Part shown: positions 1,241 to 17,177 of the stretch, in pieces
Layout: every line of letters starts with the position of its first letter
Numbering within the stretch: position 1 is the first letter of the stretch
DNA from: Amycolatopsis lexingtonensis
GTDB lineage: Bacteria > Actinomycetota > Actinomycetes > Mycobacteriales > Pseudonocardiaceae
Reading direction: 5' to 3'
Assembly: GCF_014873755.1 (NCBI RefSeq)
Contig: NZ_JADBEG010000001.1
Span: forward strand, 7,476,501 to 7,540,500
Length of the DNA stretch: 64,000 nt
The notes under the pieces: model-generated
What the model saw: only the letters and a program-made list of their open reading frames with translations
Database searches by the model: none
Told to the model about the DNA's origin: nothing
Made by a program: the position numbers and the translations under genes

Positions 1241-1249
1241 TTCGCTTCC

Positions 1250-1861
1250 GTGCCCAGAAAAGCGAAGTGGCGCCTTTCCCGGCCCCGTGCCATCCGCGGC
1301 AGTCACGTGGTGAACGCGTTCGCGGAGAAGCTGGTCCTGGGCAACCTGACGGCTCCGCAGTTCGTCCAGGTCCTGGAAACCCTGCACATGCTGGGCGAAG
1401 CGGGAGCGGGCATCGAGCTGAGCTCCCTGTCGACGGACGTCCTGGTCGACGTCGTCCGCCGCGCCTCCAAAGACCAGCTGAAGGCGATCGCGGAACACCC
1501 CGAGCTGCGCCCGGTGTTTCTCGACGAGATATTCCGCCGGATGTCGGAGCATTTCTTGCCGCAGAAGGCACGCCACGTGGATTTCGTGGTTTCCTGGCGC
1601 TTTTCGGAGGGCGCCGGCGAGGATGGCTACGACCGCTTCCAGACGGTGATCGAGGACGGCGTGTGCGTCTCGTCGACGGACCTGTCCCGCTCCCCGGACA
1701 CGACGATCACACTGTCGGTGGACGACTTCATCCGGATGGCGACCGGCAACGCCGCTGTAGCGGCGATGTTCGTGACGGGGAGGGTGAAGGTGAAGGGCGA
1801 GTACGCCCCGGCGGTGCGGTTCTCGAGTTACTTCGACATCCCCAAGCCGACGGTGGACTAG
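1250..1861 (+). CDS. SCP2-like lipid-carrier domain protein, paralogue of the preceding gene
   Basis: A 203-aa paralogue of the gene at 578. Matching blocks include SWRFSEGAGEDGYDRFQTVI (against HWRLSGGVGEGGYDRYETVI) and TGRVKVKGEYAPAVRF. The start is GTG at 1250. There is no Shine-Dalgarno sequence, but TATAGT at 1236-1241 ends 8 nt before the GTG and overlaps the stop codon of the upstream gene, so a leaderless transcript starting inside the previous gene is possible. A second in-frame GTG near 1308 aligns better with the conserved core and cannot be excluded. The lipid-binding role is inferred from the family. The gene is the last of normal base composition before the low-GC defence island. 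Confidence 0.75.
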   Translation: MPRKAKWRLSRPRAIRGSHVVNAFAEKLVLGNLTAPQFVQVLETLHMLGEAGAGIELSSLSTDVLVDVVRRASKDQLKAIAEHPELRPVFLDEIFRRMSEHFLPQKARHVDFVVSWRFSEGAGEDGYDRFQTVIEDGVCVSSTDLSRSPDTTITLSVDDFIRMATGNAAVAAMFVTGRVKVKGEYAPAVRFSSYFDIPKPTVD

Positions 1862-1921
1862 CCGGTATCCGCCGCTAGACGTCTTCATATCGGGAACCTG
1901 GCGGCGGATTCCGGCCCGTGG

Positions 1922-3730
1922 TTACCTTCCCACTGTGCTTCGCACCTCGTCGAGCAAGTGATCTAACAGCCCTGGCACGGTTCCCCCGCCGAGAACCAGT
2001 TGGCGATCGAGGAGACGATTTCCGGTCTCACACGAGGTCTCGCTGACGAGGGTGCAGCCGTGACAGGCGGACAGGTTGAGATGCGACGATCCTTGGTTAT
2101 CACTCTCGATGCACACTGGATCGTTCGAGCACACGTCTGCGTCTCCCAAGGCGGCGAGCAGCAGTGGGACCAGTTTCTCGGGATGGCCGAGACGTACCAG
2201 TCCGCCGAGTGTTCCCTGCGCGTCGCCAGCCGCCGTGTAAATGAAGATACCGGCGGTGCGGTCAGGTCGGTCGGAGTGCGCGTAGATGCGCTCCTGAAGC
2301 GACGCCGACGAGTAGCCGCTCGCAAAGGCAAGACGGCGGATGAGCAGATGGGAAATAGTGTGCAAGGCGACAAAGCGTGGCTCGGGAACAGGTAAACGGT
2401 GGGCCCACGGGGTGGAATTTCTGCTTTTGAGCAGGATCTCGGCTCGCTTGCGAACTTCGGCAGTTTCCTCCCATGCGGAGATCTCAGCCTCGTCGAATCG
2501 AAGGAAAATCCCCTCGCCAAACAATTCAAGGGCGGGGTAAATCGGCTTTCGTTTGCTGTCGAGACCGAGATCGACCATGACATATTCTGCATCGGCGTTG
2601 TGTCGTTGAAACCTGCGAAGTGCCCGAACCTCGCGAACTCGGCGGACTTGCCCTACGCCTACCAATCTACTCGTCAGTGTCGATGGCCATGTAGCCTCGG
2701 CTGAAATGGAGAATCCGTCGACTACGAAGTCGCCATTGCTGTGGTCTCGACCACCGTCGAGCTTATTGACAAAAGCTGACCATTCGCCATCTTTGAGATC
2801 GAGAAGCGGGGTTTCTTCGGCGTCTTCGGCGCCGGAGGCAAGGGCAAGAACGTCTGCTGCCGTCGTCCCGAGTTCATCCGCGATCCAGCCGGCCACCATC
2901 TCAGCTTGTGGGCCGCCATTGTCGGTGACCACTTTCTCGAAGTAAACATGACTGCGGACCTTGTCCGCTATCTCGGCCGAATGTGAGATCTCTTCAGGAA
3001 TATCGAGTGCGGACAGGCGATCGGCGATGTAGTTTCCGGTTGCGCCTCGTTGGACAGCATTGAGGCGGTGTTCGCAAATCCTCCCGCTCTCCGGTTCCTG
3101 CCAAGGCTGAATGCCGTCGCATCGGATCCCATCGCGATGAAGCGAATCTGTGCTGGTGAGTTCGGAAAGCGGGCGAGACCGCTTGCATCCTGTGCAGTGA
3201 ACACTGAGCGAAGCAAGACCCTCGCCGCGTCGAGAAGAGCGGACGAATCGTAGTTCCTTGTAGGCGCGACAGAAGCGTACCGCGTCGGTGATGTCCGCAC
3301 CGTTTCCGCGGTGGGCCCATTTGAACCATGGTATGTCTTGGATATGACTACCTTTTTCGCAAGTCGCGACATATCGCATCGGTACCAGTCCTCCGCCGCA
3401 CTCGCACCTATTGGTCCATCGACCCTTGTTCTTTCCGGTAAGCTGGGAAAGCTTGGTGCATCGTTCGCAGAAGCGCCAGGCGGGAAAGCGCCAGTAAAGC
3501 AAATGGGGGGTTTCCTTGGCGGCCCGGCCTGCATGTGCAGGAGCTTGTCGAAGAATGCCAGGACCCAGCCTTGCGAGAAGACGATCACAAATGATTTCAG
3601 GTGCATACTTTCGATCCCACCACGAGGTGTCCGCAGCTATCAGGGACTCGCCCAGAATGTCAACAATGGCGCCTACTCCAAAAGGGGTTACTGTCTCGGA
3701 AAGTCGCAGGTCATGCACGATTCTTTCCAC
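1922..3730 (-). CDS. drmB: DrmB, DUF1998-domain protein of a DISARM-like defence system
   Basis: A 602-aa protein whose opening, SETVTPFGVGAIVDILGES, is the signature start of DrmB. Cysteine pairs (CERC, CECGGG, and a C-terminal CHGC with nearby cysteines) suggest bound zinc. The last ~170 residues form the DUF1998 region, with HTISHLLIRRLAFASGY and LNLSACHGC. DUF1998 proteins accompany or are fused to large helicases in DISARM and Druantia. The start is GTG at 3728-3730 with GGAGG 5 nt upstream; the gene overlaps the end of drmA by 20 nt, so the two are translationally coupled. DrmA and DrmB form the DNA-sensing core of DISARM, and this gene closes a four-gene operon. Base composition is well below the flanking genes. 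Confidence 0.88.
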   Translation of the reverse strand: MERIVHDLRLSETVTPFGVGAIVDILGESLIAADTSWWDRKYAPEIICDRLLARLGPGILRQAPAHAGRAAKETPHLLYWRFPAWRFCERCTKLSQLTGKNKGRWTNRCECGGGLVPMRYVATCEKGSHIQDIPWFKWAHRGNGADITDAVRFCRAYKELRFVRSSRRGEGLASLSVHCTGCKRSRPLSELTSTDSLHRDGIRCDGIQPWQEPESGRICEHRLNAVQRGATGNYIADRLSALDIPEEISHSAEIADKVRSHVYFEKVVTDNGGPQAEMVAGWIADELGTTAADVLALASGAEDAEETPLLDLKDGEWSAFVNKLDGGRDHSNGDFVVDGFSISAEATWPSTLTSRLVGVGQVRRVREVRALRRFQRHNADAEYVMVDLGLDSKRKPIYPALELFGEGIFLRFDEAEISAWEETAEVRKRAEILLKSRNSTPWAHRLPVPEPRFVALHTISHLLIRRLAFASGYSSASLQERIYAHSDRPDRTAGIFIYTAAGDAQGTLGGLVRLGHPEKLVPLLLAALGDADVCSNDPVCIESDNQGSSHLNLSACHGCTLVSETSCETGNRLLDRQLVLGGGTVPGLLDHLLDEVRSTVGR

Positions 3731-6700
3731 CGATGCCTCCTTCCAGTGGCTCGCGGACGTGAACAGCGACGTTCGGTTCGACGGACCTCATGGAATCGGC
3801 GACGAGCCATCCCTCGCCACTCTGGCCAAAACGCTTGAGTAATGCGTCGTTGTCGCTCTGTCGACGGTCGTAAACCAGTGCGGATCCGGCATCGCGAGCG
3901 AGCCTCGCGCGACGATCCCAGTTGCGTAGCAACGACCAAACCTCGTCCTCGGTTTCCTCGGATTCGATATTGTCGGAGCGGCTGACCAAATCCGAGAAAC
4001 GTGCCACGAGTTTCTCAACTGCTTTCGACATGTGCTCGTTTTCGAGATCGAGACGTGAGGCGAAGTCGTTCGCGGCAAGGACAGGCAACGAGTGCCGCAG
4101 TAACGCTACGAGCGCCCCGCCCAAGGAACGGTTGCGTGACGACAACGACCACGGTGTCACGCTCGTCGGCTCGACGTTGCGGTAGAGAGCTTCGTGATAC
4201 GAACGGAAGCTCTCGAAATGTGAACGATCACGTGCTCGATTCGACCTGAACAGCGTGGTCACGACCCCGTTGTTCAGGCCGCGCCCGACCCTGCTCGTCG
4301 CTTGGATGTATTCGGCGGTCGTCTTGGGTTGACCCACCATCAGCATCAGAGCGAGACGTGGTATGTCGATTCCGACTGACAACATGTTCGAGGAGAGCAC
4401 CACATCGATGGCATCCGACGATTCATCGATGCTTCGACTCAGTTCGCGAAGGTCGTTGGGCAGTTCGTCCGGTCCGCGGCGGCTGGTGAGCTCCAGGACG
4501 TGTTCAGCCGTGACCTGCCGGAGAGGTAGGCCCAGTCTCTCCGATCGTGGTTCGAGCCGACCGTTGACGTCATCGATCACCAAAGTTCCGGTGCGGCCAA
4601 GCTCACGGAGGCTGTTGTGGTACATCACCAGCGTCCAATACGAGTCTCGCGACGTGTCCGGCCCCGAGCTCCCGGCGAGCACTTCCGGTACTTCGAGTAG
4701 GGGAGCCGTGGCAGCGATGACTGCTGACACCTGAGAGACCGACTGTGGCATCAGGCCGACGTAGAGGCGACCTTCGCCGCTCTTCACCGGACGGGAGAAG
4801 AAGGTCTGATCGCCGTCGAGTCCGGCCGGCGGGTATAACGCGACAGACCTGCCGTACAAGCCTCGGACCTGTTCGTCCGAGGCGCGGATCGTGGCTGTCG
4901 AGGCAACGATCTTGGGGATCGCGCCGTTGTGACTCAGGAGTAGTTGGATGACTGCGTCGAACACGGCGACTGTCGTACCGAGTGGGCCGGACAAGAGATG
5001 CAGCTCGTCTTGTATGAGCAGTGACGGCTGGCGGAACGGTGTGCCGAGGCCGAGCAGCTTGCCCGCTTCGGGCAGGAACTGCAGGCGGGCGAACTTGTCG
5101 ACTGTCGCAAGGAGGATCGTCGGCGGCTCGTCGTAAAGGATGTCGTCGATCACGGAGACCGGCAGCTCATCGTGGAATTCGCAGGCCGTCCGGGTGCAGT
5201 GGATGACCACGTCGCGACCCACCTCGCGGAACCCGTAGCGGCTCCAGTCCTCGTATCTCATATCCGGCAGGAGCGCAGTACCACACCACGGACAGCTCTC
5301 GATCTGGAACTGGTTCGCTTCTTCGGGGCGGGCGGCCTTACGCAGGCGATCAAGTCCTGCCTTTGCCTCCTGGCGTGATCGAGGCGTGACCTCGTTCCCC
5401 ACCCACAGGCCGATGGAGAACGGCGCCATTCGATTAGCTCGCGCGTCCTCGTTGCGAAGCAGGGTCATCGCGCAAATGAGCGAGGCGGCTCGCTGGAATT
5501 GCTGTGAGGTCAGCAGTCGGAGTGTGTACCGCGTGATCACGGCGGTTCCTCCGCCAGCGGTGCCGTGAACTATGCGTCGGTGGAAGATCTCCACGGCGGC
5601 CAGACCCAGGTAAGCTTCGGTCTTGCCGCCACCGGTCGGGAACCAGATCAGGTCGACCAGTTCTCGATCATCGTGTGTCCCGTCGATCGTCGATGCCAGG
5701 GCGACCAGTAGGAAGCCGAGTTGGAACGGGCGCCAGCGCGGCTCTTCGACGCGGGATGGTTCCGTACCATTTTTGATTGCGGTTTGGCGAATTTGGAGTC
5801 GCATCGCAGTCATGCCGAGGGCAAACGCGGTTCTCAGCGACCCTCGTTCTGGCTCGCGCAAGAGGTCAACGCCGGCTCGCATGCGGTCCAGAGCGGAGCG
5901 CGCCCGATCGGTGATGGCTTGCGCGACCGGTGTGTCGGCTCCGAAGCTTTCGACACGGCCGCTCTGTTCGGAGACCCAATGGGAATAGACATCGACAAAC
6001 GCATCGAGGGTCGATATCACGCGTTCTGTGTCTGTGTCGATCCGCGATAGGTTGTGGAGCAGAAGTGCTCGGGCCTCGACGGAGTCGGAGTCGAGGCCCG
6101 TCGTTTCGATGGCAGGCACTACAAAGGCGGGCACCGGATCGAGGAAGACGCGCGTACAGACGCCGTCGATGAGGTTCCAGTCCGCCGCCGTACCGTGGCC
6201 GACCGCGTAGATCGTTTTGCTTCGGTAACGGAGCCGCAGCTCAGCGGCTTCGGGGTCGGAGTCGAACGCATTGGACCTGTCGTACTCTAGAAACCGACCG
6301 TCGAGCGCTGGGGTTACGCTGAGAGCTACTTGGAAGAGTGTTCGATCGATGTCGCTTCGGTCGTCGCCAGTCGACTTGGAGGACACACGCGCGTGCACGG
6401 TCACGAGGTGGGCGTCCCCGTAGGCCCGCCAGCGCGATCCGATCTCGATCGGCACTTCGCCTGCAGTGAGCACGTGTGGCGGACGGCCTCGCGTGAGTTC
6501 GAGACCCTCGAACCGGAACGGAGAACGCTGCCATCGTGGCGGCCCATCGTCTTTGATCGACCGGTAGGTACCCCCGGAGAAGTCGCACGAGACGCTCGGC
6601 CGATCGGTGACGAAGGAGATCGCGACCGAAGAGGGACGCCAGTCTTCGGCGATCGGGACGCTCGCGCCGGCCTCCTCGATCTCACCCGTGAGTACCTCCG

Positions 6701-6884
6701 CTTCGATGTGCTCGCTTTCCTCGGAGGATTCCGGCGGGGGCTCAGACATCGCGGGGAACAGCATGCCGACGGCATATTGGCGGTCAGGCAGGTTGAGGAG
6801 GGTCTCCGTGTCACCGCCATCGGGACCCACGTAAGCCATCCGAAGGTGGTGTAGCGCTACTTTCTGTGAGTGAGTGAGCGTCAA
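3711..6884 (-). CDS. drmA: DrmA, SF2-type helicase of a DISARM-like defence system
   Basis: A 1057-aa helicase. The Walker A region IWFPTGGGKTEAYLGLAAVE at residues 413-432 is the characteristic DrmA form. Further along are IQDELHLLSGPLG (motif II), VASTATI (motif III) and a C-terminal helicase lobe with QATSRVGRG (motif VI). A small cysteine cluster (CPWCG, then CTRTAC) lies between the lobes. In DISARM, DrmA with DrmB binds and translocates on incoming DNA. The start is TTG at 6882-6884, preceded by GGAGAAG, and it overlaps the upstream stop codon as TTGA, so it is coupled to the NERD gene. Length and motif order match the family; there is no sign of damage. Confidence 0.92.
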   Translation of the reverse strand: MTLTHSQKVALHHLRMAYVGPDGGDTETLLNLPDRQYAVGMLFPAMSEPPPESSEESEHIEAEVLTGEIEEAGASVPIAEDWRPSSVAISFVTDRPSVSCDFSGGTYRSIKDDGPPRWQRSPFRFEGLELTRGRPPHVLTAGEVPIEIGSRWRAYGDAHLVTVHARVSSKSTGDDRSDIDRTLFQVALSVTPALDGRFLEYDRSNAFDSDPEAAELRLRYRSKTIYAVGHGTAADWNLIDGVCTRVFLDPVPAFVVPAIETTGLDSDSVEARALLLHNLSRIDTDTERVISTLDAFVDVYSHWVSEQSGRVESFGADTPVAQAITDRARSALDRMRAGVDLLREPERGSLRTAFALGMTAMRLQIRQTAIKNGTEPSRVEEPRWRPFQLGFLLVALASTIDGTHDDRELVDLIWFPTGGGKTEAYLGLAAVEIFHRRIVHGTAGGGTAVITRYTLRLLTSQQFQRAASLICAMTLLRNEDARANRMAPFSIGLWVGNEVTPRSRQEAKAGLDRLRKAARPEEANQFQIESCPWCGTALLPDMRYEDWSRYGFREVGRDVVIHCTRTACEFHDELPVSVIDDILYDEPPTILLATVDKFARLQFLPEAGKLLGLGTPFRQPSLLIQDELHLLSGPLGTTVAVFDAVIQLLLSHNGAIPKIVASTATIRASDEQVRGLYGRSVALYPPAGLDGDQTFFSRPVKSGEGRLYVGLMPQSVSQVSAVIAATAPLLEVPEVLAGSSGPDTSRDSYWTLVMYHNSLRELGRTGTLVIDDVNGRLEPRSERLGLPLRQVTAEHVLELTSRRGPDELPNDLRELSRSIDESSDAIDVVLSSNMLSVGIDIPRLALMLMVGQPKTTAEYIQATSRVGRGLNNGVVTTLFRSNRARDRSHFESFRSYHEALYRNVEPTSVTPWSLSSRNRSLGGALVALLRHSLPVLAANDFASRLDLENEHMSKAVEKLVARFSDLVSRSDNIESEETEDEVWSLLRNWDRRARLARDAGSALVYDRRQSDNDALLKRFGQSGEGWLVADSMRSVEPNVAVHVREPLEGGIGGKNRA

Positions 6885-8401
6885 TTCTTCTCCAACTGTC
6901 GTCGAACCAGTTGTTGGATCCGTCGCTTTTCCTTGTGGGAGAGCACGATGTCCAAGGAGACTCGTGCACGAGTGGTGGCGACATAGAAGGCGGCGATGCC
7001 GGCTTCATCGAAGGTCTCGGGGAGTTCACAGACGATCACGTGCTCTGCTTCCAAACCCTTGGCATACCTCGGGCTCGTTATGGTAATACCACGTTTCGAC
7101 TTCTCTGGTGGAACATTCGTTGCGGCGCGAATAATCCAAATGTGTTCGGTGTTTACGCCGTCAGCGACCAGTTCCTCCGCGATGGATTCGGCCTCGGTAA
7201 AAGTGGATTCGGCGGCGGTCGTGGTCCAGCGAACGTTTTCGCCATTGACGATTCCTGGATCTCCTAGGTCTGCTCCGAGATATTCCTGGACCGTGTGAAC
7301 GATTGCTCGAGTGTTGCGAACATTAAGACTCAGGTCGACCGAAGAGGCCTCCGCGGTGATGAGTTGCAAGACGTCCTGGTCGAAGTGTCCGTCGACGTGT
7401 GCTTGATTATTATGGTCGAGAAACATTCGCCAATTTCCGGCACTCCTTCCGCCGGTGATCACACCGTCGATCCGATCCATTCCTTCTGCCGTCATCAGAT
7501 CTTGTGCCTCGTCGACGAATACAACGTCGTACGTTTTGGCGGAATCAAGTCGGTCGAATGAGAGCAGGTCGATGGCGCGATCAACCACGTATGGTTCGAA
7601 GAACTTCCTCAGGGCAGGCGAACGGAACGTGATCAGAACGGACCGTCCTTGGTCGGCCTCTTGCTTTGCTGCCTCTGCGAGTACCAAGGATTTTCCCGTG
7701 CCTGCCCCGCCGGATACCAGTACTCGGGGATTTCGTGCCAGTGATGCGAGAAACCTGGCCTGGTCGGCTGTGGCACGGTTCTGTTCCTCGATCACCGCGC
7801 CCCGCAGTGCATCGATAACCGGCATGCGGGCGAAGTGTCCGAACAGGCGTGTCCGCAATTCATCGATCCTTGCACGTTTTCGCCCTGCGGGAGGTTCCTG
7901 GGCGTTCGCTGCGACGGTGTCGAGCGCCCGCGTCAGCTCCGCAATGCTCATATCAGTCCGCGCCAGCCAGTGAGTCGGATGCCATTCGACCGAGTGTGGC
8001 GGGGTATCGATGTCTGGCGTCACCACAATGGCCTCTTGTGCGAACCAGCCGACCCCCTCTTTTCGGAGGATGTTGCGCAATGCGTACATTGCCGATTGTG
8101 CCTGTTCCATTGGTGACGTGGCAAGCTTGTGCCAGTCGCCCCGTCGGTCGATGCTGTACCAAACGCCGTCGTGTTTCTTGATGCCGCCACCTTTGGCTTC
8201 GACGACGATCAGGACTTTCTTCCATAATATGAGGAAGTCCGCTTCGGCTTGCTGCTTGTATGCATGTGACCGAAGTTTTACCGAATGAAAAGCTACCGCG
8301 TCGACGTCGCCTTCGACATCTCGTAGCAGACGGGCGATTCTGCGTTCCGCGTCACTGGTCGCGGTCTCTTCTATGTCAGCCAGGGTTGGTACAAGAATCA
8401 T
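6881..8401 (-). CDS. NERD-nuclease / SF1-helicase fusion protein of the defence operon
   Basis: A 506-aa protein with two parts. Residues 1-120 are a NERD domain, a PD-(D/E)xK-type nuclease fold: EADFLILW (D55) and VVEAKGGG (E68, K70) supply the metal-binding triad. Residues 220-506 are a UvrD/DUF2075-like motor, with Walker A GGAGTGKS at 231-238, Walker B VFVDEAQD at 294-301, and a C-terminal FYVATTRAR motif. ATG at 8401 is chosen because it overlaps the stop of the upstream gene as ATGA. Sitting between the ATPase fusion and drmA, it occupies the operon without any DrmC (phospholipase-D nuclease). It is inferred that it supplies the nuclease activity of this system. Confidence 0.8.
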   Translation of the reverse strand: MILVPTLADIEETATSDAERRIARLLRDVEGDVDAVAFHSVKLRSHAYKQQAEADFLILWKKVLIVVEAKGGGIKKHDGVWYSIDRRGDWHKLATSPMEQAQSAMYALRNILRKEGVGWFAQEAIVVTPDIDTPPHSVEWHPTHWLARTDMSIAELTRALDTVAANAQEPPAGRKRARIDELRTRLFGHFARMPVIDALRGAVIEEQNRATADQARFLASLARNPRVLVSGGAGTGKSLVLAEAAKQEADQGRSVLITFRSPALRKFFEPYVVDRAIDLLSFDRLDSAKTYDVVFVDEAQDLMTAEGMDRIDGVITGGRSAGNWRMFLDHNNQAHVDGHFDQDVLQLITAEASSVDLSLNVRNTRAIVHTVQEYLGADLGDPGIVNGENVRWTTTAAESTFTEAESIAEELVADGVNTEHIWIIRAATNVPPEKSKRGITITSPRYAKGLEAEHVIVCELPETFDEAGIAAFYVATTRARVSLDIVLSHKEKRRIQQLVRRQLEKN

Positions 8402-11400
8402 GCACGCTGCTCCTGCCAAAGGTCTTCGTACTCGCGGTACCCGAGCCACTCATTGAAGGCTCCGAAGTTGTCCGCCATATCCACGATCAGACACTCTTCC
8501 TTCCCGCCGTTTCTGGGGCCGCGGAGACCGCGACCGGCCATTTGGATATAGGCGTTCGGGCTGAAGGTGGGGCGAGCGATGTACAGGGCGCGGACACCGG
8601 GGGCGTCGAAACCCTGTGCCAGTAGATCGCAGTTTGCGAGTACGCGGATCTCATTTCGCTTGAACCGCTCGATGCTGTCGCGACGTTCTTGCCTTCCCGT
8701 CTGGCCGCTGACCGCTGCCGCTTCGACATCGCGATACCGCAGCGTTGCGGCGAGCACCTGAGCTGACAGGACGTTCGGTGTGAACACCAGCACTGGCCAG
8801 CTGTTGTCCAGGCCCATGATGTGGTCGACGAGGATTGACATGCGGGCCTGATCTGCGCCGACGCGATCCATCACCCGTGCGGGAACTCGGCGCTGCTGTT
8901 CGGCTTCGGCCTTCTCGTCCGGATCGAGGGTGACTTCGATGCCCGGGAGCACTTCGTGTTGTACCTTTGCCAGCACTCCGAGCTCGGCGAGCGGACGGTA
9001 GGCGTCGAGTGTGTCGAAGACGTCCAGCTTCCGATTGCCGAACCGGCTGGCGAGCGCGGCTGTTGCTGATGCCGACGTGCCCTTGAATGGGGTTGCGGTC
9101 AACCCGACGAGAGGTCGCTCCCAGCCGCGGCCCGCGACCCCCAACCAGTTCAAGATCCGCGTGTACCGCTCGGAACCACCGGCGCGGTGTCCTTCGTCGA
9201 CGATCACTGCTGTCGAACTGGCCAGCCAGCTGTACTCGGGGTTCTCGAGGAGGGTGTCGAGCTTGGCGTCGGTTGCGACGACAACGGAGAAATCCGTGTC
9301 CGGTTCGTGGACGATGTTGTTCTCCCACAAGCGGCCGATCGTCAGGGAGCGCTCGTCGCCGAGGCCACGCCAAACAGTGCTCCAGGTTTGCACGGCCTGC
9401 TCGCAGAGTTCCTGAGACTGGGCGATCCACAGGACAGGTCCCCGAAGGTTCCCGTCGATGAAGAGTCGGAGCACGGTCTCGGCCGCAACTCGTGTCTTGC
9501 CTGCGCCAGTCGGCAACTCCACCATCGCCTTGAGGTGACGCCCGTTTGCCTCGCGGAGAGTGAGCACGTCCCTGAGCTGCCGGCTGATCTTCTGCTGGAA
9601 CGAGTGAAGTGGATTGAGTTTCACAGCCCCGGGAATGACGAACTCGTCTTCCTGGTGTTGAGTGCGCCGCCCGGCGTATTCGCTGCCGAACCCCATCTTT
9701 CTCAGCCACGAGATGGTCGCCGCACCACCCGCCCACGTTGTCGGTACATCGACGAAACCGTCGTTCCGGAAGGGGTCTGCAAGCTGTTTGATCGAGTCGG
9801 ATCCGTATACCTTGAGGACAAGGTCGGCGACCGACGTGGAGGCATTGACGAGGCCTTGTGCCTCGAGGGCTCGCCAAAGGCCTTTCGGCAACGCGTCGCG
9901 TAGATCGTCGGGACCGAAGTAGACGTCGAGTCGCTCGGCGTCGGTGGGGGCACGCTTGGCTTCTTGGCGAAGTGCCTGTAGCCGCTGATCGAGGCCGGCC
10001 TTGAGTACGCCCTCGAGTTCAGCGTTGGTGAGTCCCAGGGAAAAGGCTTCGTTCACGACACCGAGGAGGCGGCGCTCGTCCGTGTCGCTGCGTACCACCA
10101 GACTCAGCCCGTCGAGATGCCATTCGAGCGTTTGGTCTTCGACGCCGTCTTCGGTGCTCACCCGCTTGACCACGCGGAGTGCCCTCGCAACCGTCGCAGT
10201 CGTCAGCGTGTCTCCGACGGGAGTGCTTCGGAGTCCGCTGAAGATGTCGACGATACGCTCGCTCTCCTGTCGCCCTTCGATCTCCATGGAGAACGCGAAG
10301 CTGTCCTCGAACCGGCGGCAGCCCACCAAGGTCTCGAGTTCGGCTACCTGGTCGTCTGTCACCCGAAGGTACGGGCGCTGACGTGACGAGAGGAACTCCT
10401 CTTCCTCGTCCGTGGTAGCGAGATAGACCGAGTCCGGAGGTCGGGCCTCGATCGCTCGACCCACCTTCGCCGGAACTGTGGCGGGGCGGCCGTCGGCGTG
10501 GGCGATACGGCAGGCCGCGGTGATGAACTCGACGAGCACGGAGTTGTCGAGGGCAGAGGGGAAGAGCTTGGCCGAAAGCGCCTCGCGGAGTACGGAGGCT
10601 GGCACAGCGTCCAATTCGTCCGGGAGGCTCAGGGCCTCAGCGACCTGGCCGGGCCCTCGGAACAACGGCAGAAGGTTCTTGTACTTGAGCATCGACGGAG
10701 CGACGATCTCGCCAGGCGGGCGGTAGCCTCGATCGGATTCCAGGAGTCCGGCACGGTCCACTGCCCAACGAACGGGTGACTGCACGCTGTAGGACGTTCC
10801 GGTGTCCAAGTCTTCGCACGTCCACTCCGAGTCGCCGGTTCGAAGCAAGCCGGCGGTCCAGTTCGCGCGTAGTCGCTCGCTTGCTTCGGCGTCCCGAAGG
10901 AGGAACAGCATCGAGAATGGCCCGGGACCCTTGCCCGGGTAGAGGTCCACATGTTCAATCGCGCGTTCTCCCGGGCCCCGTCGGGAGTCGAGAGTAGCCA
11001 GAACCCATTCGCGATACTGCGGGAGAAGGGGTTCGTCCTCCGCTGAATAACTGCCGACAGGGCTGTGCACCACGCCGATCCGGTGCGCCACCTCAGGCAT
11101 GCATCGTCGGCGGTCCAGCATCTTGGCCGCGAGGTGGTCACCCAGCGGCTCGGCGAGGTCGAAGACTTGCGTAGGCCATGCCCACCCACCGTCTTGTGTC
11201 GGCACCTTGACCGTGGAATTGTGGTCAGTCAGTGCTTTCACTGCCACGTGCACGGAGACTTCGAGGACTGCTTCCCAGAGCTTCTCCAGTTGATCATCAT
11301 TCGGTACTGGCGAAAGCTTCGCGAGTCTGGCGTTGAGGATCGCTAGTGGGTCCAAGTCGCGGAAGCCGAACTCCCGTAAAACTTTATCGACGTTCGGCTG

Positions 11401-13113
11401 TGCAAGAAAATCGGGCTCGACGAAAATTGCGTGCTCGATCTCGACGTCATCTTCCTGGTTTAGAAAGATGATCTTCCTGTCGTGAAGGGATCGCATTCCG
11501 TCAGTCGTCGGAATGACTTTGGCTCGAAGAATGTCAGGAAGGTTGCGATGAGTCTGGATAAACTTCAGTGCGTCTGCGGAGGACGGGGGATGGTTTCCTT
11601 CGGACCACTCCCTGAGCCAGGAGAGAAGCCCGCGTTTGGGAACGGATTCCAGGGCGCGCTTGCCATCTCGGTCATTGTCGAGAAGATCTTTGGATGCCGT
11701 GGCTGCGAATAGTTGGCGAAGGCGGGTTATTCGCTGCTGAGATGTGTAGCAGCGCCAGTGTGGAGCATCGATTCCGGTGTTCGGGGAAGTGCTCCAGATG
11801 CGGTGGTCGCCAGAATCGACATTCTGGATCATGAAGTCCAGTGGGCGTAGTTCAGTGGCGCGCGTCAATGTGCCTTTCGCGTCGGGTACCAGGTCGAAAT
11901 CCGTCGATATCCGGGGCACATGCGCACAGAGCAACTCGTCGCCGAAGGACAGAGGTTCTCGTCCTCGTGCGGGCATGTAGTCGAGGTGTGCTGCTGGATC
12001 GTCGCTGGTGCTCACCTTTGGCAACAAGCGTACGAACATCTCTGAGAGACTCTTGAGTATCTCGCGGTTGTAGTCGTTCTTGAGTAGTGTGGTCCGATCG
12101 TCGTTCACGCTCCAGGGAGCGTTGAACAATGCCGATGCCGAGGTCTGGTCCTGCAGGGGAAAGTACGACCAGAACTGCCCGATTTTCTGCTTTGCCTGGC
12201 GTTTCGGAACCGCGACGGTGATCTTGACCTCGTTGCGCGAGACGGCTTCGCCGACCTGTCGTCGCGCCTCGGTCGACGGAGCGTGCATCCGATTGCTGAC
12301 GAGCCATTCGTCGCCGCTGCCGTCGGGACGCTCGATCTTGAGTGTCCCATCGCCGAAATCGCGAGATACGTGGGTCGTCTCGAACCGGTCGTTGCCGAGA
12401 ACTCTGAGTCTGATTTCACGGACGTCGCCGACGAACAGCAGGAACTCTGAGGGGAACTGAATGATCTCACTGCGGAGCCGCGCGAGGCCCATCGCGCGGG
12501 GGAGCTTGACGATGGTGGTCGCCCACTCGGCAAGTTCGGCGAGGATGGGATCCTCGTCAAAGGCGGTCATGGCATCGATGACTGTTGCGGTGCGTAGTAT
12601 CGGAAGACGCTTCGCGGTTGGCTTAATTTGATCTATGGCAGTGCGTGCGATGGGTGAGTTGAACTCGAACGAGACTGACCGGCTGAAAACCTGGGGGGCA
12701 GCTGAAACTGCCAGCACGGATTTGAAGCCGAGTCCGAAGCGTCCGATCTCGTCGCCGCGTTTGTCGCTGAGATGCGCGTGCATGATCGTCGTGAGTCCGG
12801 TCCGCGAGAACGGGCGCCCGGTATTGGCACAGTAGAGCGTTTGGCTCTCGGTGTCGAGCACGATTTCGACTCGGCCCACGCTGATCTCTTCATGCTCGGT
12901 GCCGGACATGGCGTCGGCGCCGTTCTGAACAAGTTCGAGCAGTGTTCGGTTCGAATACCCGCCGACGCGGATCGATTCCTCGTGGTTCGCGTGCTCTGAG
13001 ATGAGGTGCTGGTTCGTCTTGTAAACGGCGACTGCGACGTCGAATTGGTCCTCGACGTCTCGAACCAAGCGGTCGTCCGGAGTCCAGGACGGCAGGTTCA
13101 TCACCACTGGCAC
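8398..13113 (-). CDS. Sacsin/GHKL-type ATPase fused to a DEAD/DEAH helicase, first gene of the defence operon
   Basis: A 1571-aa protein. Residues 1-250 carry a GHKL (histidine-kinase/Hsp90-like) ATPase of the sacsin type: N-box LLELVQNGADAMSG at 58-71 and lid motif GRFGLGFKSVL at 124-134. About 900 residues of unassigned sequence follow. From about 1190 there is an SF2 restriction-type helicase: ELPTGAGKTR near 1199-1208, VIVDEGHRAGG near 1304, LTATPFKGT near 1338 and QMAGRGLRG near 1524. The start could be GTG 13113, GTG 13107 or ATG 13101; GGGAG lies just upstream. It is the promoter-proximal gene of a four-gene operon with drmA and drmB. No named DISARM component known to me has this build. 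Its role as a sensor or remodelling motor is inference. Confidence 0.85.
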   Translation of the reverse strand: MPVVMNLPSWTPDDRLVRDVEDQFDVAVAVYKTNQHLISEHANHEESIRVGGYSNRTLLELVQNGADAMSGTEHEEISVGRVEIVLDTESQTLYCANTGRPFSRTGLTTIMHAHLSDKRGDEIGRFGLGFKSVLAVSAAPQVFSRSVSFEFNSPIARTAIDQIKPTAKRLPILRTATVIDAMTAFDEDPILAELAEWATTIVKLPRAMGLARLRSEIIQFPSEFLLFVGDVREIRLRVLGNDRFETTHVSRDFGDGTLKIERPDGSGDEWLVSNRMHAPSTEARRQVGEAVSRNEVKITVAVPKRQAKQKIGQFWSYFPLQDQTSASALFNAPWSVNDDRTTLLKNDYNREILKSLSEMFVRLLPKVSTSDDPAAHLDYMPARGREPLSFGDELLCAHVPRISTDFDLVPDAKGTLTRATELRPLDFMIQNVDSGDHRIWSTSPNTGIDAPHWRCYTSQQRITRLRQLFAATASKDLLDNDRDGKRALESVPKRGLLSWLREWSEGNHPPSSADALKFIQTHRNLPDILRAKVIPTTDGMRSLHDRKIIFLNQEDDVEIEHAIFVEPDFLAQPNVDKVLREFGFRDLDPLAILNARLAKLSPVPNDDQLEKLWEAVLEVSVHVAVKALTDHNSTVKVPTQDGGWAWPTQVFDLAEPLGDHLAAKMLDRRRCMPEVAHRIGVVHSPVGSYSAEDEPLLPQYREWVLATLDSRRGPGERAIEHVDLYPGKGPGPFSMLFLLRDAEASERLRANWTAGLLRTGDSEWTCEDLDTGTSYSVQSPVRWAVDRAGLLESDRGYRPPGEIVAPSMLKYKNLLPLFRGPGQVAEALSLPDELDAVPASVLREALSAKLFPSALDNSVLVEFITAACRIAHADGRPATVPAKVGRAIEARPPDSVYLATTDEEEEFLSSRQRPYLRVTDDQVAELETLVGCRRFEDSFAFSMEIEGRQESERIVDIFSGLRSTPVGDTLTTATVARALRVVKRVSTEDGVEDQTLEWHLDGLSLVVRSDTDERRLLGVVNEAFSLGLTNAELEGVLKAGLDQRLQALRQEAKRAPTDAERLDVYFGPDDLRDALPKGLWRALEAQGLVNASTSVADLVLKVYGSDSIKQLADPFRNDGFVDVPTTWAGGAATISWLRKMGFGSEYAGRRTQHQEDEFVIPGAVKLNPLHSFQQKISRQLRDVLTLREANGRHLKAMVELPTGAGKTRVAAETVLRLFIDGNLRGPVLWIAQSQELCEQAVQTWSTVWRGLGDERSLTIGRLWENNIVHEPDTDFSVVVATDAKLDTLLENPEYSWLASSTAVIVDEGHRAGGSERYTRILNWLGVAGRGWERPLVGLTATPFKGTSASATAALASRFGNRKLDVFDTLDAYRPLAELGVLAKVQHEVLPGIEVTLDPDEKAEAEQQRRVPARVMDRVGADQARMSILVDHIMGLDNSWPVLVFTPNVLSAQVLAATLRYRDVEAAAVSGQTGRQERRDSIERFKRNEIRVLANCDLLAQGFDAPGVRALYIARPTFSPNAYIQMAGRGLRGPRNGGKEECLIVDMADNFGAFNEWLGYREYEDLWQEQRA

Positions 13114-13711
13114 CTGCTCCCGTGGCTAGACCACATGTCTCGGATGCAGCTCGAGATTGCCAGATCCATCCGGTCCTGCGGTCGCGGCGCCTCGTCCAAC
13201 TGCAGGCAGGCGCTCGCTCGTCGGAGGCATGCTTCGGAGCCTGCTTCTCCGACTCTCATCCGATCTTGCAACACAACTCCATGGTCGACATTCGTGCGAG
13301 TACGCGGGAGTGTTCTTCTCTATCACGTGAAACGCGTGCTGTGTGTGATTCTTGACGAAATGGGCTGATGGAGTGAACATTCGTCGCGACAGGTCGCCCG
13401 GAGTCGTCGGGAAGGAGGAAGGTCTCTGTGAGGTACCGCATGAGAGCAGAGTGACGGTGTTCCTCTGTTCCAGCGCTACCGACGGTCAGCTGCTATCTCG
13501 GTCGACGTTGCCCGGCCCCGCTCTCCTTCATCTGTGGTACGACGTGCTCGATGCACTTCGTGATCAAACACGTCGTCGAAGTGTCGGTCTTTGTTACTCG
13601 CGTGGTCACGAACATGTCACGCCCGAGAAAGCAGCAGGTAGAGCCCCTGGTCGGCGTGTCGAGTTCGGCAGGAGGCAGTTCCGCCGAGTCTGCCTTATAG
13701 ACTCCTGTCCC
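13114..13711. other. Divergent control region between the defence operon and its methyltransferase
   Basis: About 600 nt with no convincing gene; the open frames across it have no family features and unremarkable composition. It must hold the promoters for both the leftward operon and the rightward methyltransferase. The right end carries a TAGACT box 8 nt before the methyltransferase ATG. At 13411-13454 a strong Shine-Dalgarno sequence (GAAGGAGGAAGG) precedes an eight-codon frame, GTG 13428 to TGA 13454, which might be a leader peptide. Confidence 0.5.
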
Positions 13712-13712
13712 A
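13698..13712 (+). promoter_or_regulatory. Putative leaderless promoter -10 box for the methyltransferase
   Basis: TAGACT at 13698-13703 fits the actinobacterial TANNNT -10 box and ends 8 nt before the ATG at 13712. There is no ribosome-binding site in this gap, so transcription probably begins at or next to the start codon. No good -35 box is visible. Confidence 0.45.
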
Positions 13713-14839
13713 TGACCGACGGACAGCCGCTCTCCCCTCTGCCTGGGCAGGTCGAGATGGTGGACCTCTTCGCCGGTCCGGGTGGACTCGACGTCGCCGC
13801 CCACTGGCTTGGTGTGTCCGTCGCCGGGATCGAATGGGATGAAGACGCTTGCCGTACCCGCATGAATGCCGGTCTGCAGACCAAACATGGTGACGTCCGC
13901 TTTTCCAAGCCTGCCGACTACCCCGAGGCTCGCATCCTGAGCGGAGGTCCGCCGTGTCAGACATTCACAGTCGCGGGACATGGCGCAGGCAGGCGAGCCT
14001 TGGACAAGGTGCTCTCGTTCGTCGATGTCATCGCTCCCGGTGATGAGGTCGGTGCAGGCGAGCAAAAGCCTGGCAGCGCGGAGATCGTCGAGGAACTGGC
14101 GCTACTCGATGACGAGCGCACTGGTTTGGTCCTGGAGCCTCTGCGATGGGCTGTCGATGCCGGCGTTCCGTACGACGCGATCGTCTTGGAGCAGGTTCCC
14201 GCTGTACTGCCGGTATGGGAGGCGTTTGCGGTAGCACTCGAGAAGCGCGGTTACAGTGTCGACTGTGGAATCCTCCACACCGAGGAATTCGGTGTTCCGC
14301 AGACGCGGCGTCGGGCTATTCTGATCGCCCGACGCGGTGGTGAGGCGAACCTTCCGAAACCCACTCATCGGCGGTATTATAAGGGCAAAGAACGCGGAGA
14401 AGGCGATCCCGACCTGCTGCCGTGGAAGACGATGGGGGAAGCGCTCGGCTTGTCGGAACGGTTCACCGTGGTGTCCAACTACGGCACCGGTGGCGATCCG
14501 AAGGCGCGTGGAGAGCGGCTCTCGACACAGCCCGCGTTCACCGTCACCGGCAAGGTTTCGCGCAACCGTCTGGTCGGGCGGCCCAAGGGGATGCCCGATC
14601 GCTTCACCGACTACGAGGCGGGCAAGTTGCAGACCTTCCCGCCCGACTACCCCTGGTCGGGGCGGGGCATTGCCCAGCAGATCGGGAATGCGATCCCGCC
14701 GCGGTTGGCTGCACACGTTCTCGCCGCGGCTTTGGGCAAGGAGCTCGACGTTGTTGCTCTGGACAAGTGCGTCGAGCAACGCTGGAAGGACACCCGCAAC
14801 GGGGTCGATGGACTGTTGAAGGATGCAGCCAAGAGCTGA
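13712..14839 (+). CDS. DNA (cytosine-5) methyltransferase of the defence island
   Basis: A 375-aa C5-cytosine methyltransferase. Motif I is VDLFAGPGGLDVAAHW near residue 14, motif IV is GGPPCQTFTVAGHG with the catalytic Cys, motif VIII is QTRRRAILIARR, and motif X is QQIGNAIPPRLAAHVL. Motif VI reads LEQVPAVLP, that is EQV instead of the common ENV, a variant I associate with actinobacterial and actinophage enzymes. The variable target-recognition region lies about 210-320. An upstream in-frame extension to 13352 has no family features and is rejected. The gene is divergent from the drmA/drmB operon and ends 3 nt from vsr. By analogy with class 2 DISARM (DrmMII) it should mark host DNA as self; the target sequence is unknown. 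Confidence 0.9.
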   Translation: MTDGQPLSPLPGQVEMVDLFAGPGGLDVAAHWLGVSVAGIEWDEDACRTRMNAGLQTKHGDVRFSKPADYPEARILSGGPPCQTFTVAGHGAGRRALDKVLSFVDVIAPGDEVGAGEQKPGSAEIVEELALLDDERTGLVLEPLRWAVDAGVPYDAIVLEQVPAVLPVWEAFAVALEKRGYSVDCGILHTEEFGVPQTRRRAILIARRGGEANLPKPTHRRYYKGKERGEGDPDLLPWKTMGEALGLSERFTVVSNYGTGGDPKARGERLSTQPAFTVTGKVSRNRLVGRPKGMPDRFTDYEAGKLQTFPPDYPWSGRGIAQQIGNAIPPRLAAHVLAAALGKELDVVALDKCVEQRWKDTRNGVDGLLKDAAKS

Positions 14840-14842
14840 AGC

Positions 14843-15256
14843 TCACCGGCGTTCGCGGACCGCCTTGATGACTCGCGCTGCGGCGACGTCCACGGTTTCG
14901 TGCTCCCAAATGCGAACGGCCAGCCAGCCGGCCTCGTGAAGCCGCGTGTCAGTATCGACATCCCGTCTGCGGTTGGTTTCGATCTTGTCTCGCCAGAACT
15001 CGGCGTTGTTCTTGGGCCAAGTCGCGTGCTCGGGGCAGCCATGCCAGAAGCAGCCGTCCACGAAGACTGCGACGCGGGCCGGGCCGAACACCAGGTCAGC
15101 CTCGCGTCGTACGCCTCTGACCGGTCTGCGGTGTACCCGGTAGCGAAAGCCGGCTCGGTGCAGAGCCCTGCGCAACGCCATCTCGATCCCGGTATCCCGG
15201 GACTTCTGCTTGCTCATTCGGATGCGCACCGCGGATGTGGTCTTCAGAGGCTCCAC
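14843..15256 (-). CDS. vsr: Vsr, very-short-patch mismatch repair endonuclease
   Basis: A 137-aa protein matching Vsr over its whole length: MSKQKSRDTGIEMALRRALH at the N-terminus, the metal-binding and catalytic stretch VAVFVDGCFWHGCPEH, then WPKNNAEFWRDKIETNRRRD and VRIWEHE. Vsr nicks T:G mismatches that arise when 5-methylcytosine deaminates, which fits a partner C5 methyltransferase whose gene ends 3 nt away on the opposite strand. GTG at 15254-15256 is chosen because it gives normal family length; the open frame continues upstream to 16153, but that part is the antisense of fxsA and the next gene. Vsr implies the neighbour makes 5mC. It marks the right edge of the low-GC island. Confidence 0.88.
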   Translation of the reverse strand: MEPLKTTSAVRIRMSKQKSRDTGIEMALRRALHRAGFRYRVHRRPVRGVRREADLVFGPARVAVFVDGCFWHGCPEHATWPKNNAEFWRDKIETNRRRDVDTDTRLHEAGWLAVRIWEHETVDVAAARVIKAVRERR

Positions 15257-15312
15257 CCGTACATTGTGGCAAGGCCACCCAGTTCTCGGCGAACCCGCGG
15301 CGAACGGGTGAA

Positions 15313-15777
15313 TCAACCGTCGATGATTCGGCCTTCGATCACCGGGTGGTCGTCGCGCTTGTGAGGCTCGTTCACCACTTCGCTGTCCACCACCATCACC
15401 GGTCCCCGGCGCTGGTTCGCGAACCGCACAGCCCGCTTCTCCATCCGCTTCAACCACAACCGCCGGGCCACCGCGCGCGAAGGCGGCAGGATCAACAACA
15501 GACCGAGCACGTCGCTCACGAACCCCGGCACCAGGATCAGCACCCCGCCGAGCCCCACGAGCATCCCGTCGGTCAGCTCCTTCTCCGAAGGACGCCCGGC
15601 CCGGGCCGATTCGACGAACGCCCGCATCGCCTTCGCGCCCTCGCGGCGGGCGAGCCAGGAGCCGACGAAGGCGCCGGCCAGCAGGAGGCCCAGCGTGCCG
15701 AGCACGCCGACGGCCGAGCCCACCGCCCAGATCGCGGCGATCTCGGCGAAGACGTAGAGCAGGAACGCGACAGCCAT
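15313..15777 (-). CDS. fxsA: FxsA family membrane protein
   Basis: A 154-aa integral membrane protein with three or four hydrophobic segments in the first 100 residues, including AFLLYVFAEIAAIWAVGSAV, LGLLLAGAFVGSW and the family motif DGMLVGLGGVLILVPGFVSD, followed by LGLLLILPPSR. The C-terminal 50 residues are basic and cytoplasmic. FxsA is named from E. coli, where overexpression relieves F exclusion of phage T7; its normal function is not known. ATG at 15775-15777 is preferred because earlier residues show no family similarity. It is divergent from the gene at 15846 and is the first gene of normal composition after the island. Confidence 0.85.
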   Translation of the reverse strand: MAVAFLLYVFAEIAAIWAVGSAVGVLGTLGLLLAGAFVGSWLARREGAKAMRAFVESARAGRPSEKELTDGMLVGLGGVLILVPGFVSDVLGLLLILPPSRAVARRLWLKRMEKRAVRFANQRRGPVMVVDSEVVNEPHKRDDHPVIEGRIIDG

Positions 15778-15845
15778 ATCGGGACAACGAACAACCTGTC
15801 CGTTTTGCTCCCGCGGCCGAAACCCACCGGCTAGTCTCACCCTTC

Positions 15846-17177
15846 GTGCCCGACTGGTTCCGCTGGCTCCTGATCGCGCTCGCGGTGCTCGGCGGCGTAG
15901 CGCTGGCCGGGCGTCGACGGCTGAAACTTCCGGCGTTTCCGCAGGTGAGAGCCGGGATCGCCGCGTCCGTGCTCGTCTGGTTGGCGATCGCGTTGATCGT
16001 CGCCAGCGGAACCGGGGGTGGGCTGCTCTGGTTCCTCGGCTGGCCGCGGCTGCCCACCACCGCCGCCTTCGACGTCACCCAGTTGCTCGACCTGCTGAAG
16101 ATCGCCCTGTCCGTGGTCGCGGGGCTGGGCGGGGTGGTGCTGCTCGCCGTCAACTACCGGAAGCAGCGGGTCACCGAGAACGAGCACGCCCTCGCCGTCG
16201 AGAAGGCCGAGCGCGAGACCGTTCAAGGGTTCAACGAACGCCTGGGTGCCGCCGCCGAGCAGCTGGCCCACGACAGTCCCGCGGTGCGGTTGACCGGCGT
16301 CTACGCCCTCGCCGGGCTCGCCGACGACTGGGTGGACAAGCGCCAGGTCTGCGTCGACGTCCTCTGCGGCTACCTGCGGCTCCAGCCCGAAACCATGACG
16401 CCCGGCGAGTCCGCGGTGCGCGAGGCGATCCTCCGGATGTTCCGCGACCGGCTGTCCGGGAACCTGTGGTGGCGGCAGCCGGTCGACTTCGACTTCACCG
16501 AGGTCGTGTTCGAAAACGCCGACTTCTCCGGGCTCCGGTTCCGTGGCCGGCTGATCCTCGACCGGGCGGAGTTCACCGGGGAGCTGGCCTCGTTCGACCG
16601 CGCGCGCTTCAGCGGTGGCCTCAGCTGCCACGGCACCCGCTTCGCCGCCGAGCGCACCACCTTCGGCAGCACGACCTTCGACGGCGGCATCGAGTTCGTC
16701 GGCGCCGAGTTCGCCGGGCGGGAGCTCGGCTGGTCCGGTGCGACCGTCCGAGGGGGCGCGACCGACTTCTACCGCTGCCGGGTCGCGTGCGAACGCCTGG
16801 ACTTCACGCACCTGAGCATCGAAGCCGGCGAAGTCCGCTTCGAGCAGATGCAACTGGCGGACACCGAGGTGGACTTCGAGAACCTCGACGCCGGCTGGCT
16901 CGGGTCCGAAGGCGGCTTCCCGCGGCTGGTCTTCGAAGACGTGCGGTTCGCCCGCGGCCGGTTGCGGCTCGAGCTGTGGAGCGACCGCGAGCGGATGATC
17001 TGGCTCCGGGACTGCGTGCTCGACACCGTGGCCGTCGAGATGCGCGGGCTCGACGACGCTGAACCCTGGCTGAACCTGCGGAACGTCGAACTCCGCGGGG
17101 ACAGCGAAATCCCCGCGAAGTTCATCCGACGCCCTAGCTCGGAACCTCGTCCAAGTACGCCCGTGCCTGAAGCGTGA
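15846..17177 (+). CDS. Membrane-anchored pentapeptide-repeat-like protein
   Basis: A 443-aa protein. Three N-terminal hydrophobic stretches (residues about 5-20, 38-60 and 82-102) are followed by a short charged linker and a helical segment. From about 215 there is a run of degenerate pentapeptide-type coils, such as DFDFTEVVFENADFSGLRF and LILDRAEFTGELASFDRARF, that should form a right-handed beta-helix. This layout is common in actinomycetes and its function is unknown to me. GTG at 15846 has no Shine-Dalgarno sequence, but TAGTCT at 15832-15837 ends 8 nt upstream, suggesting leaderless expression. The 3' end overlaps the convergent ABC transporter gene by 44 nt. Confidence 0.75.
   Translation: MPDWFRWLLIALAVLGGVALAGRRRLKLPAFPQVRAGIAASVLVWLAIALIVASGTGGGLLWFLGWPRLPTTAAFDVTQLLDLLKIALSVVAGLGGVVLLAVNYRKQRVTENEHALAVEKAERETVQGFNERLGAAAEQLAHDSPAVRLTGVYALAGLADDWVDKRQVCVDVLCGYLRLQPETMTPGESAVREAILRMFRDRLSGNLWWRQPVDFDFTEVVFENADFSGLRFRGRLILDRAEFTGELASFDRARFSGGLSCHGTRFAAERTTFGSTTFDGGIEFVGAEFAGRELGWSGATVRGGATDFYRCRVACERLDFTHLSIEAGEVRFEQMQLADTEVDFENLDAGWLGSEGGFPRLVFEDVRFARGRLRLELWSDRERMIWLRDCVLDTVAVEMRGLDDAEPWLNLRNVELRGDSEIPAKFIRRPSSEPRPSTPVPEA

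Follow-up and report, generated by a model that had tools for sequence, protein, structure and literature searches.

This study concerns a stretch of 64,000 nucleotides, hereafter called the window, from the actinobacterium Amycolatopsis lexingtonensis (assembly GCF_014873755.1, a single-contig genome of 10.74 Mb; NZ_JADBEG010000001.1, positions 7,476,501-7,540,500). It carries an island whose core is a leftward set of genes on the minus strand, encoding, in order, a GHKL ATPase fused to a superfamily 2 (SF2) helicase, a NERD nuclease fused to a superfamily 1 (SF1) helicase, DrmA and DrmB (window positions 1922-13113). A sequence-only reading had described four overlapping leftward genes, a divergent C5-cytosine methylase and a vsr gene, and profile and frame scans find all of them where they had been placed. 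The features of the island are the following.

1849..15330 (ends approximate), no strand: the whole island, delimited by blastn against six congeners, four of which lack it at the corresponding site.
1922..3730, minus strand: drmB, the DUF1998/MZB zinc-binding partner of DrmA (NF038324, PADLOC DrmB, PDB 7s9v_B).
3711..6884, minus strand: drmA, a YprA-family SF2 helicase (PADLOC DrmA, 7s9v_A, motifs, acidic loop).
6881..8401, minus strand: fusion of a NERD PD-(D/E)xK nuclease and an SF1 helicase (Pfam NERD, start in homologues, conserved residues).
8398..13113, minus strand: GHKL-SF2 helicase protein, 1571 aa (profile matches, AlphaFold2 models, fold matches).
13114..13711, strand not assigned: divergent intergenic region between the core operon and the methylase, presumed from its position to hold promoters.
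13712..14839, plus strand: C5-cytosine DNA methyltransferase, 375 aa from its likely start (PF00145, motifs).
14843..15256, minus strand: vsr, encoding a mismatch endonuclease and converging on the methylase gene (TIGR00632, PF03852).

The GHKL-SF2 and NERD-SF1 genes meet in ATGA (a 4-bp overlap), the NERD-SF1 gene and drmA in TTGA, and drmA and drmB overlap by 20 bp, joints that fit a translationally coupled operon. A 453-aa frame on the minus strand (527-1888), considered as a fifth operon gene, is spurious, as none of 8000 scored candidates reached an E-value of 0.001. Profile scans gave no family match to this frame, and its opposite strand holds two frames with SCP2 domains.

Besides the operon itself, its conservation is a direct observation. 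A scan with the GHKL-helicase over 84,980 species, one genome per species, gave 352 relatives, of which the best 80 were kept; these represent 79 loci, all of which were examined. The arrangement of GHKL, DrmA and DrmB, both in sequence and in orientation, is the same in 79/79 (drmB of locus L032 being cut by a contig end), and the order holds while identity to the window GHKL protein drops to about 31%. Such constancy in all 79 related loci is more than chance and, with an SF1 helicase in between in 78 of them, bears out the proposal of a distinct, co-conserved unit. It also bears on the explanation that two systems merely lie side by side, namely a Tiamat- or paraMORC-like restriction-modification system (GHKL-helicase, C5 methylase and vsr) and a minimal DrmAB with an SF1 helicase. 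The combination of a GHKL ATPase with an SFII helicase, a cytosine methylase and Vsr is the published paraMORC pattern, in which a nuclease of restriction fold also takes part (PMC2292703). The window does hold a GHKL ATPase with an S5 domain together with an SFII helicase, a methylase and a nuclease of restriction endonuclease fold, and DrmAB loci exist that have SF1 or NERD genes and no GHKL. Unlike in the paraMORC systems, ATPase and helicase are fused in one chain here, and the available text of PMC2292703 makes no mention of DrmA and DrmB. Moreover, the overlap with the SF1 gene and the first place in the operon, kept in 79/79 loci, tie the GHKL gene to its neighbors, so that two adjacent systems are judged unlikely.

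DISARM consists of drmA, drmB and drmC, together with either drmD and an N6 methylase or drmE and a C5 methylase. DrmB of the window scores 399 bits against NF038324 (DrmB_fam, cut-off 240), with E-values of 4e-72 for PADLOC DrmB and 8e-59 for PDB 7s9v_B, and DrmA reaches 9.7e-198 with PADLOC DrmA and 2.6e-141 with the solved DrmA, 7s9v_A; against the NCBI equivalog DISARM_DrmAS it scores 796 bits, under the cut-off of 950. DrmC, on the other hand, had been reported missing from the window, and this is upheld: the eight window frames scanned with profile libraries gave no DrmC match, the class-1 DrmC model finds at best 28.7 bits in the host genome vs a cut-off of 133, and DrmC occurs in 0/79 GHKL-anchored loci, the place after drmB in L032 lying beyond the contig end. 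As had also been read from the sequence, no extra protein is of the drmD type, since neither DrmD nor an N6 methylase was found among the scanned window frames; both occur in one of the 79 loci (L059). The window frames gave no DrmE-named match at 1e-3 in a profile library that includes DrmE models.

A second sample was anchored on DrmA. It comprised 394 genomes drawn evenly from the class of the window (presumably Actinomycetes), 55 of which, the window's own included, have DrmA at E <= 1e-50; all 60 remaining places, spread over 54 genomes, were fetched, some of these stretches stopping at contig ends. The DrmC profile that gave 0/79 above, grown from an annotated DrmC in four rounds on the same frames, finds DrmC in 21 of the 60 regions, and PADLOC confirmed two of its matches, one in L140 and one in L133, as DrmC. 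GHKL is present in 16 places, with NERD in one and with UvrD in 15. The places with no GHKL include 14 where an SF1 helicase lies downstream and a sigma-like protein is present, three with other NERD genes and one with UvrD, and five places are unclassified. GHKL and DrmC are never found together in these 60 places (Fisher p 4e-4, kinship ignored). DISARM is probably undercounted in the sample, because the threshold favours window-like DrmA.

In a quick, unrooted LG+G4 tree of 96 DrmA proteins (one from the window, 26 from among the 79 loci and the full series of 69 regions L086-L154), window-type DrmA forms one clade of 19 rows with support 87. This clade sits in a set of 39 rows, and a branch with support 100* separates that set from all 22 drmC-linked rows; the smallest set holding the latter has 25 rows, including L092, L135 and L147, in which DrmC was not detected. 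DrmA of the UvrD-GHKL type falls on the DISARM side of the tree, so that GHKL is either ancestral to several branches or has been exchanged. By membership, therefore, the locus is related to DISARM and is not a member of it: DrmA and DrmB are there, while DrmC in the locus, DrmD with an N6 methylase, and a DrmA among the drmC-linked set are not found. It could still be argued that this is an ordinary DISARM in which, after the loss of drmC, a different phospholipase D-type (PLD) nuclease of the host is used, NERD and GHKL being accessories. In that sense, drmC is apparently non-essential and recruitment of other PLD proteins has been proposed (Bravo et al., PMC9142583), a 502-aa frame elsewhere in the host genome gives two weak matches to the DrmC model (28.7 and 25.8 bits), and three DrmA rows on the DISARM side come without a detected DrmC. 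However, DrmA of the window lies outside the drmC-bearing set, drmD and the N6 methylase are absent among the scanned frames, and GHKL (79/79) and NERD (56/79) remain linked to drmAB even in widely diverged loci, which makes a reduced DISARM very unlikely.

Several relatives deserve mention in their own right. In a sister group (L086, L096-L109), a small SF1 helicase lies downstream of DrmA-DrmB, a large sigma-like protein is encoded in the vicinity, and there is neither GHKL nor DrmC; the one sigma-like protein scanned, that of L086 (1273 aa), contains regions 2-4 of sigma-70 and gives a match to PADLOC MzaA. Three plasmid loci (L087, L089 and L093, from Deinococcus, Rhizobium and Azospirillum) combine DrmAB with NERD, UvrD or DUF2357-PD(D/E)xK genes, one of them also with a DarT-type gene, and show that the wider DrmAB radiation is not only actinobacterial. 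Beside four GHKL- or UvrD-type DrmAB loci (L059, L090, L120 and L123) lie a DrmD-like helicase and an N6 methylase; these are possible hybrids, in which a DISARM- or ARMADA-like modification pair replaces or joins the C5 methylase.

The DrmAB complex of Serratia DISARM has a trigger loop (DrmA residues 176-232), prefers 5' overhangs and is sensitive to methylation, which is sensed by V1296 of DrmA (PMC9142583). The window DrmA carries Walker A and B, SAT, motif VI, a C-x2-C pair and an SMRxVE motif, and its motifs, including Walker, motif VI and V1035, are kept in 80/80 homologues, one cysteine in 79/80. V1035, within SMRSVE, is probably the counterpart of V1296, the compared alignment ending before this residue. 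In the aligned reference DrmA chain, YLVGKLAP at 168-175 immediately precedes the trigger loop, and in the window DrmA, YAVGMLFP at 37-44 is followed by 45 residues, 12 acidic and one basic, resembling such a loop. Motif and acidic stretch are found in 19/19 window-type DrmA proteins, 16/22 of the drmC type, 4/23 of the UvrD-GHKL type, the single L059-type protein and 0/18 of the sigma type. The likeness to DISARM comprises DrmA and DrmB, the trigger-loop-like stretch, the methylation-sensing motif and a linked methylase; unlike DISARM, the locus has NERD-SF1 and GHKL-SF2 proteins in place of DrmC, DrmD and an N6 methylase, and its DrmA stands elsewhere in the tree. By analogy, the trigger loop, the 5'-overhang preference and the methylation sensitivity may carry over to the window type, and the locus plausibly shares its first step of action with DISARM.

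The open frame of the NERD-SF1 gene spans 6881-8449 (522 residues), and homologues place its start at 8401 (506 aa); residue numbers follow the 522-residue frame starting at 8449. The NERD domain (PF08378, 39.4 bits, cut-off 22.1) has its catalytic residues E35, D71 and E84-x-K86 intact, as are the SF1 Walker motifs, and D71, E84 and K86 are kept in 57/57 homologues and E35 in 56/57 (one gap). The suggestion that NERD replaces the PLD nuclease stands for the branch of the window, with NERD-SF1 between GHKL and DrmA in 56/79 loci, but does not extend to the 22 loci where this slot holds a UvrD-type SF1 helicase lacking NERD, nor to L059, where it is empty. The near-constant element of the slot is the SF1 helicase (78/79 loci). 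PADLOC families with a match in the NERD-SF1 protein are RTasNERD-Hel, Nhi, AbiO and GajB, and on this ground the system might be abortive, sensing phage DNA ends and then degrading host DNA or RNA through NERD-SF1 until the cell stops. Since a methylase is linked in 70/79 loci, which argues for the sparing of self DNA, and the related ARMADA is reported to be non-abortive (PMC12458937), abortive action seems rather unlikely. Upstream of GHKL, the UvrD-type loci have three extra gene families, each in 20-21 loci (for example L076:6962-9109, L082:6075-7070 and L066:4948-5826); two scanned members match the PADLOC candidates PDC-M33A and PDC-M33C (a helix-turn-helix protein and DUF6339), and the scanned member of the third had no match.

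The 1571-aa protein harbors a GHKL ATPase at residues ~1-410 and a RadD/PbeA-like SF2 helicase at ~1160-1550; the middle region, of 650 residues, gave no match in the fold comparison. It matches a sacsin-type ATP-binding domain (NF047352, 70 bits, cut-off 50), ResIII (60 bits) and Helicase_C (53 bits), and its GHKL glycines, K131, Walker A/B and motif VI arginines are kept in 80/80 homologues. AlphaFold2 models made from it have predicted local distance difference test (pLDDT) values of 87 and 89, and in them residues 33-411 resemble the N and middle domains of Hsp90 and residues 35-344 the ATPase module of SMCHD1, which shows the fold class of the GHKL part; the best-scoring solved helicase for the SF2 part is RadD. 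The GHKL part is accordingly not of an unfamiliar kind, since it matches the TmtA family and the Hsp90/sacsin/SMCHD1 fold; the sensor or motor role proposed for the GHKL-helicase is a putative one.

TmtA is the protein of Tiamat. The TmtA profile matches residues 15-370 with 182 bits, and this likeness of the N-terminal GHKL module covers about 350 of 1538 profile positions (8-357) and not the full length of a single large TmtA; unlike Tiamat, the window protein has a C-terminal SF2 helicase and is part of a four-gene operon. The profile proved wrong as a marker of the GHKL-DrmAB system, as it has matches in 177/394 genomes of the class; those listed are mostly open frames of ~1000-1300 aa away from DrmA places, and at least 17 matches, among them the one in the window, fall at GHKL-type DrmA places. 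Annotations of Tiamat in this phylum may lump together more than one protein family. At G118:C3 (L125), the lone UvrD-type DrmAB place with no GHKL in its stretch, a TmtA-like 1612-aa frame lies ~29 kb off on the same contig. A family found beside four loci includes a 626-aa protein (L006:3641-5521) with a GHKL-like ESAQNSWDA stretch and no Pfam match. That phages carry the core was not borne out: GHKL matches occur in 1123 phage records, none covering 80% of the protein, the matches listed concern the helicase part, and a viral-contig scan gave three short helicase matches.

The C5 methylase open frame covers 13352-14839 on the plus strand, with a likely start at 13712 (PF00145, 99.6 bits), and its translation has DLFAGPGG, PPCQ and QTRRR motifs; its best match to the DrmMII family has an E-value of 2.6e-19, that to a type II methylase model 1.5e-82. 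The vsr product scores 106 bits with TIGR00632 (cut-off 98) and 62 bits with PF03852. A C5 frame lies within the examined flanks of 62/79 loci, on either side and either strand, with two or more in 24/79, and C5 identity does not follow DrmA identity (rho -0.06, p 0.70, 39 loci with a tblastn match). Therefore, the idea of six genes conserved as a set survives for the four-gene core, but not for the methylase and vsr, which are exchangeable.

The flanks of the island were searched in 40 relatives, its own genome included; the SCP2 frame was found in 25 and the pentapeptide gene in seven, and the six other genomes with both were compared. One of the six sites is filled, four lack the island and one has only methylase and vsr, a presence and absence seen directly in the alignments. 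The whole island is present in L156 (96.4% over 18.4 kb, blastn), whereas in L157 window positions 800-1853 and 15331-16717 are aligned 7 bp apart, and in L158, L159 and L160 the flanks are separated by different sequence, of 40 bp, 210 bp and 2 kb respectively. L155, from genome G396, keeps methylase and vsr, the methylase split over two frames, and has 39 bp instead of the four core genes (equivalent to window 1849-13648); another GHKL relative with 33% identity lies elsewhere in that genome. A GHKL relative at 1e-100 is present in 13/80 genomes of the genus, its own included, three of them matched in part only and one of those three with an internal stop; genome G414 has its relative at a different place and its own copy of this site is free of the island. 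Third-position G+C content is 0.60-0.78 in the six island genes vs 0.89-0.91 in the two flanking genes measured. This composition and the site presence and absence make it most likely that the locus is a mobile island. The words shared between its ends amount to a single direct pair and a single inverted pair, each of 8 bp, and so no mechanism of transposition is proposed. It has also been considered that the operon serves DNA repair or as a barrier to transformation, and not phage defence, given that RadD is the best-scoring solved helicase and that one main branch of the YprA helicases is repair-related (PMC12458937). The patchy occurrence, the foreign composition, the island-free sites and the linked methylase-vsr pair speak against such a function, which is hardly credible here.

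A search of the literature on DISARM-like sets, TmtA/Tiamat and MORC (titles, abstracts and opened papers, most subscription papers being outside its scope) found no description of this gene set, in keeping with the earlier view that no named system has this composition. The survey of the YprA family that named ARMADA, BRIGADE and TALON, and in which DISARM typically includes DrmC, has two mentions of NERD and none of GHKL or sacsin in its main text (PMC12458937). These loci may already be present, unlabelled, in the DISARM branch of that survey. ARMADA, BRIGADE and TALON are likewise YprA-family helicase systems, TALON having a NERD nuclease, ARMADA II a GajB-like SF1 helicase and ARMADA a Vsr domain (PMC12458937). 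They differ from the window, which, like DISARM, encodes the YprA helicase and the DUF1998 part in separate genes, where NERD is fused to SF1, and where the scanned frames include no BrxHII, PglX, TPR-CSD or TBP gene; of the parts of TALON, the window has NERD, but those frames hold no Pfam match to a TPR, CSD or TBP domain. A survey of actinobacterial defence counts Tiamat among enriched systems of unknown mechanism, the word DISARM being absent from its available text (PMC10482375).

The proposed model is that the exchangeable C5 methylase would mark self DNA, and vsr would repair the T:G mismatches that result from 5-methylcytosine deamination. DrmAB, restrained by its acidic trigger loop, would load onto DNA with single-stranded 5' ends, and a contact of the C-terminal valine of DrmA would report methylation, by analogy with Serratia DISARM. 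The 1571-aa protein, standing in for DrmD or DrmE, would have a GHKL clamp of the Hsp90/MORC type that shuts on ATP and, together with the RadD-like SF2 motor of the protein, licenses or moves the complex. The NERD-SF1 protein would stand in for DrmC as the effector, unwinding and cutting foreign DNA. The explanation we lean towards, by a modest preference, is an anti-phage system that is built on DrmAB, resembles restriction-modification and acts in this manner, being related to DISARM but having its own partners. More tentatively, and with less than even confidence, DrmAB may be a general chassis that loads at single-strand ends and has been adopted by at least four system lineages, each with its own effector, drmC-DISARM being one; here, an Hsp90/MORC clamp with an SF2 motor would license DrmAB, loading and not sequence recognition would decide between self and non-self, and effector slot (NERD-SF1 or UvrD-SF1) and methylase would be freely swapped.

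For the annotation of genomes, matches to drmA or drmB alone do not mean DISARM, as DrmC was not detected in the fetched stretch of 39/60 DrmA places sampled in the class, a few of these stretches being cut by contig ends. The locus links bacterial ATPases of the MORC/Hsp90 type to a helicase complex of solved structure, and a sister system that keeps DrmAB, with another nuclease and an added GHKL clamp, is a natural experiment that separates the role of DrmAB from that of its partners. In soil actinobacteria, this widespread set of four genes looks like an unnamed antiviral system that shares two core parts with DISARM and joins them to another nuclease and to a large motor protein of Hsp90-like kind.
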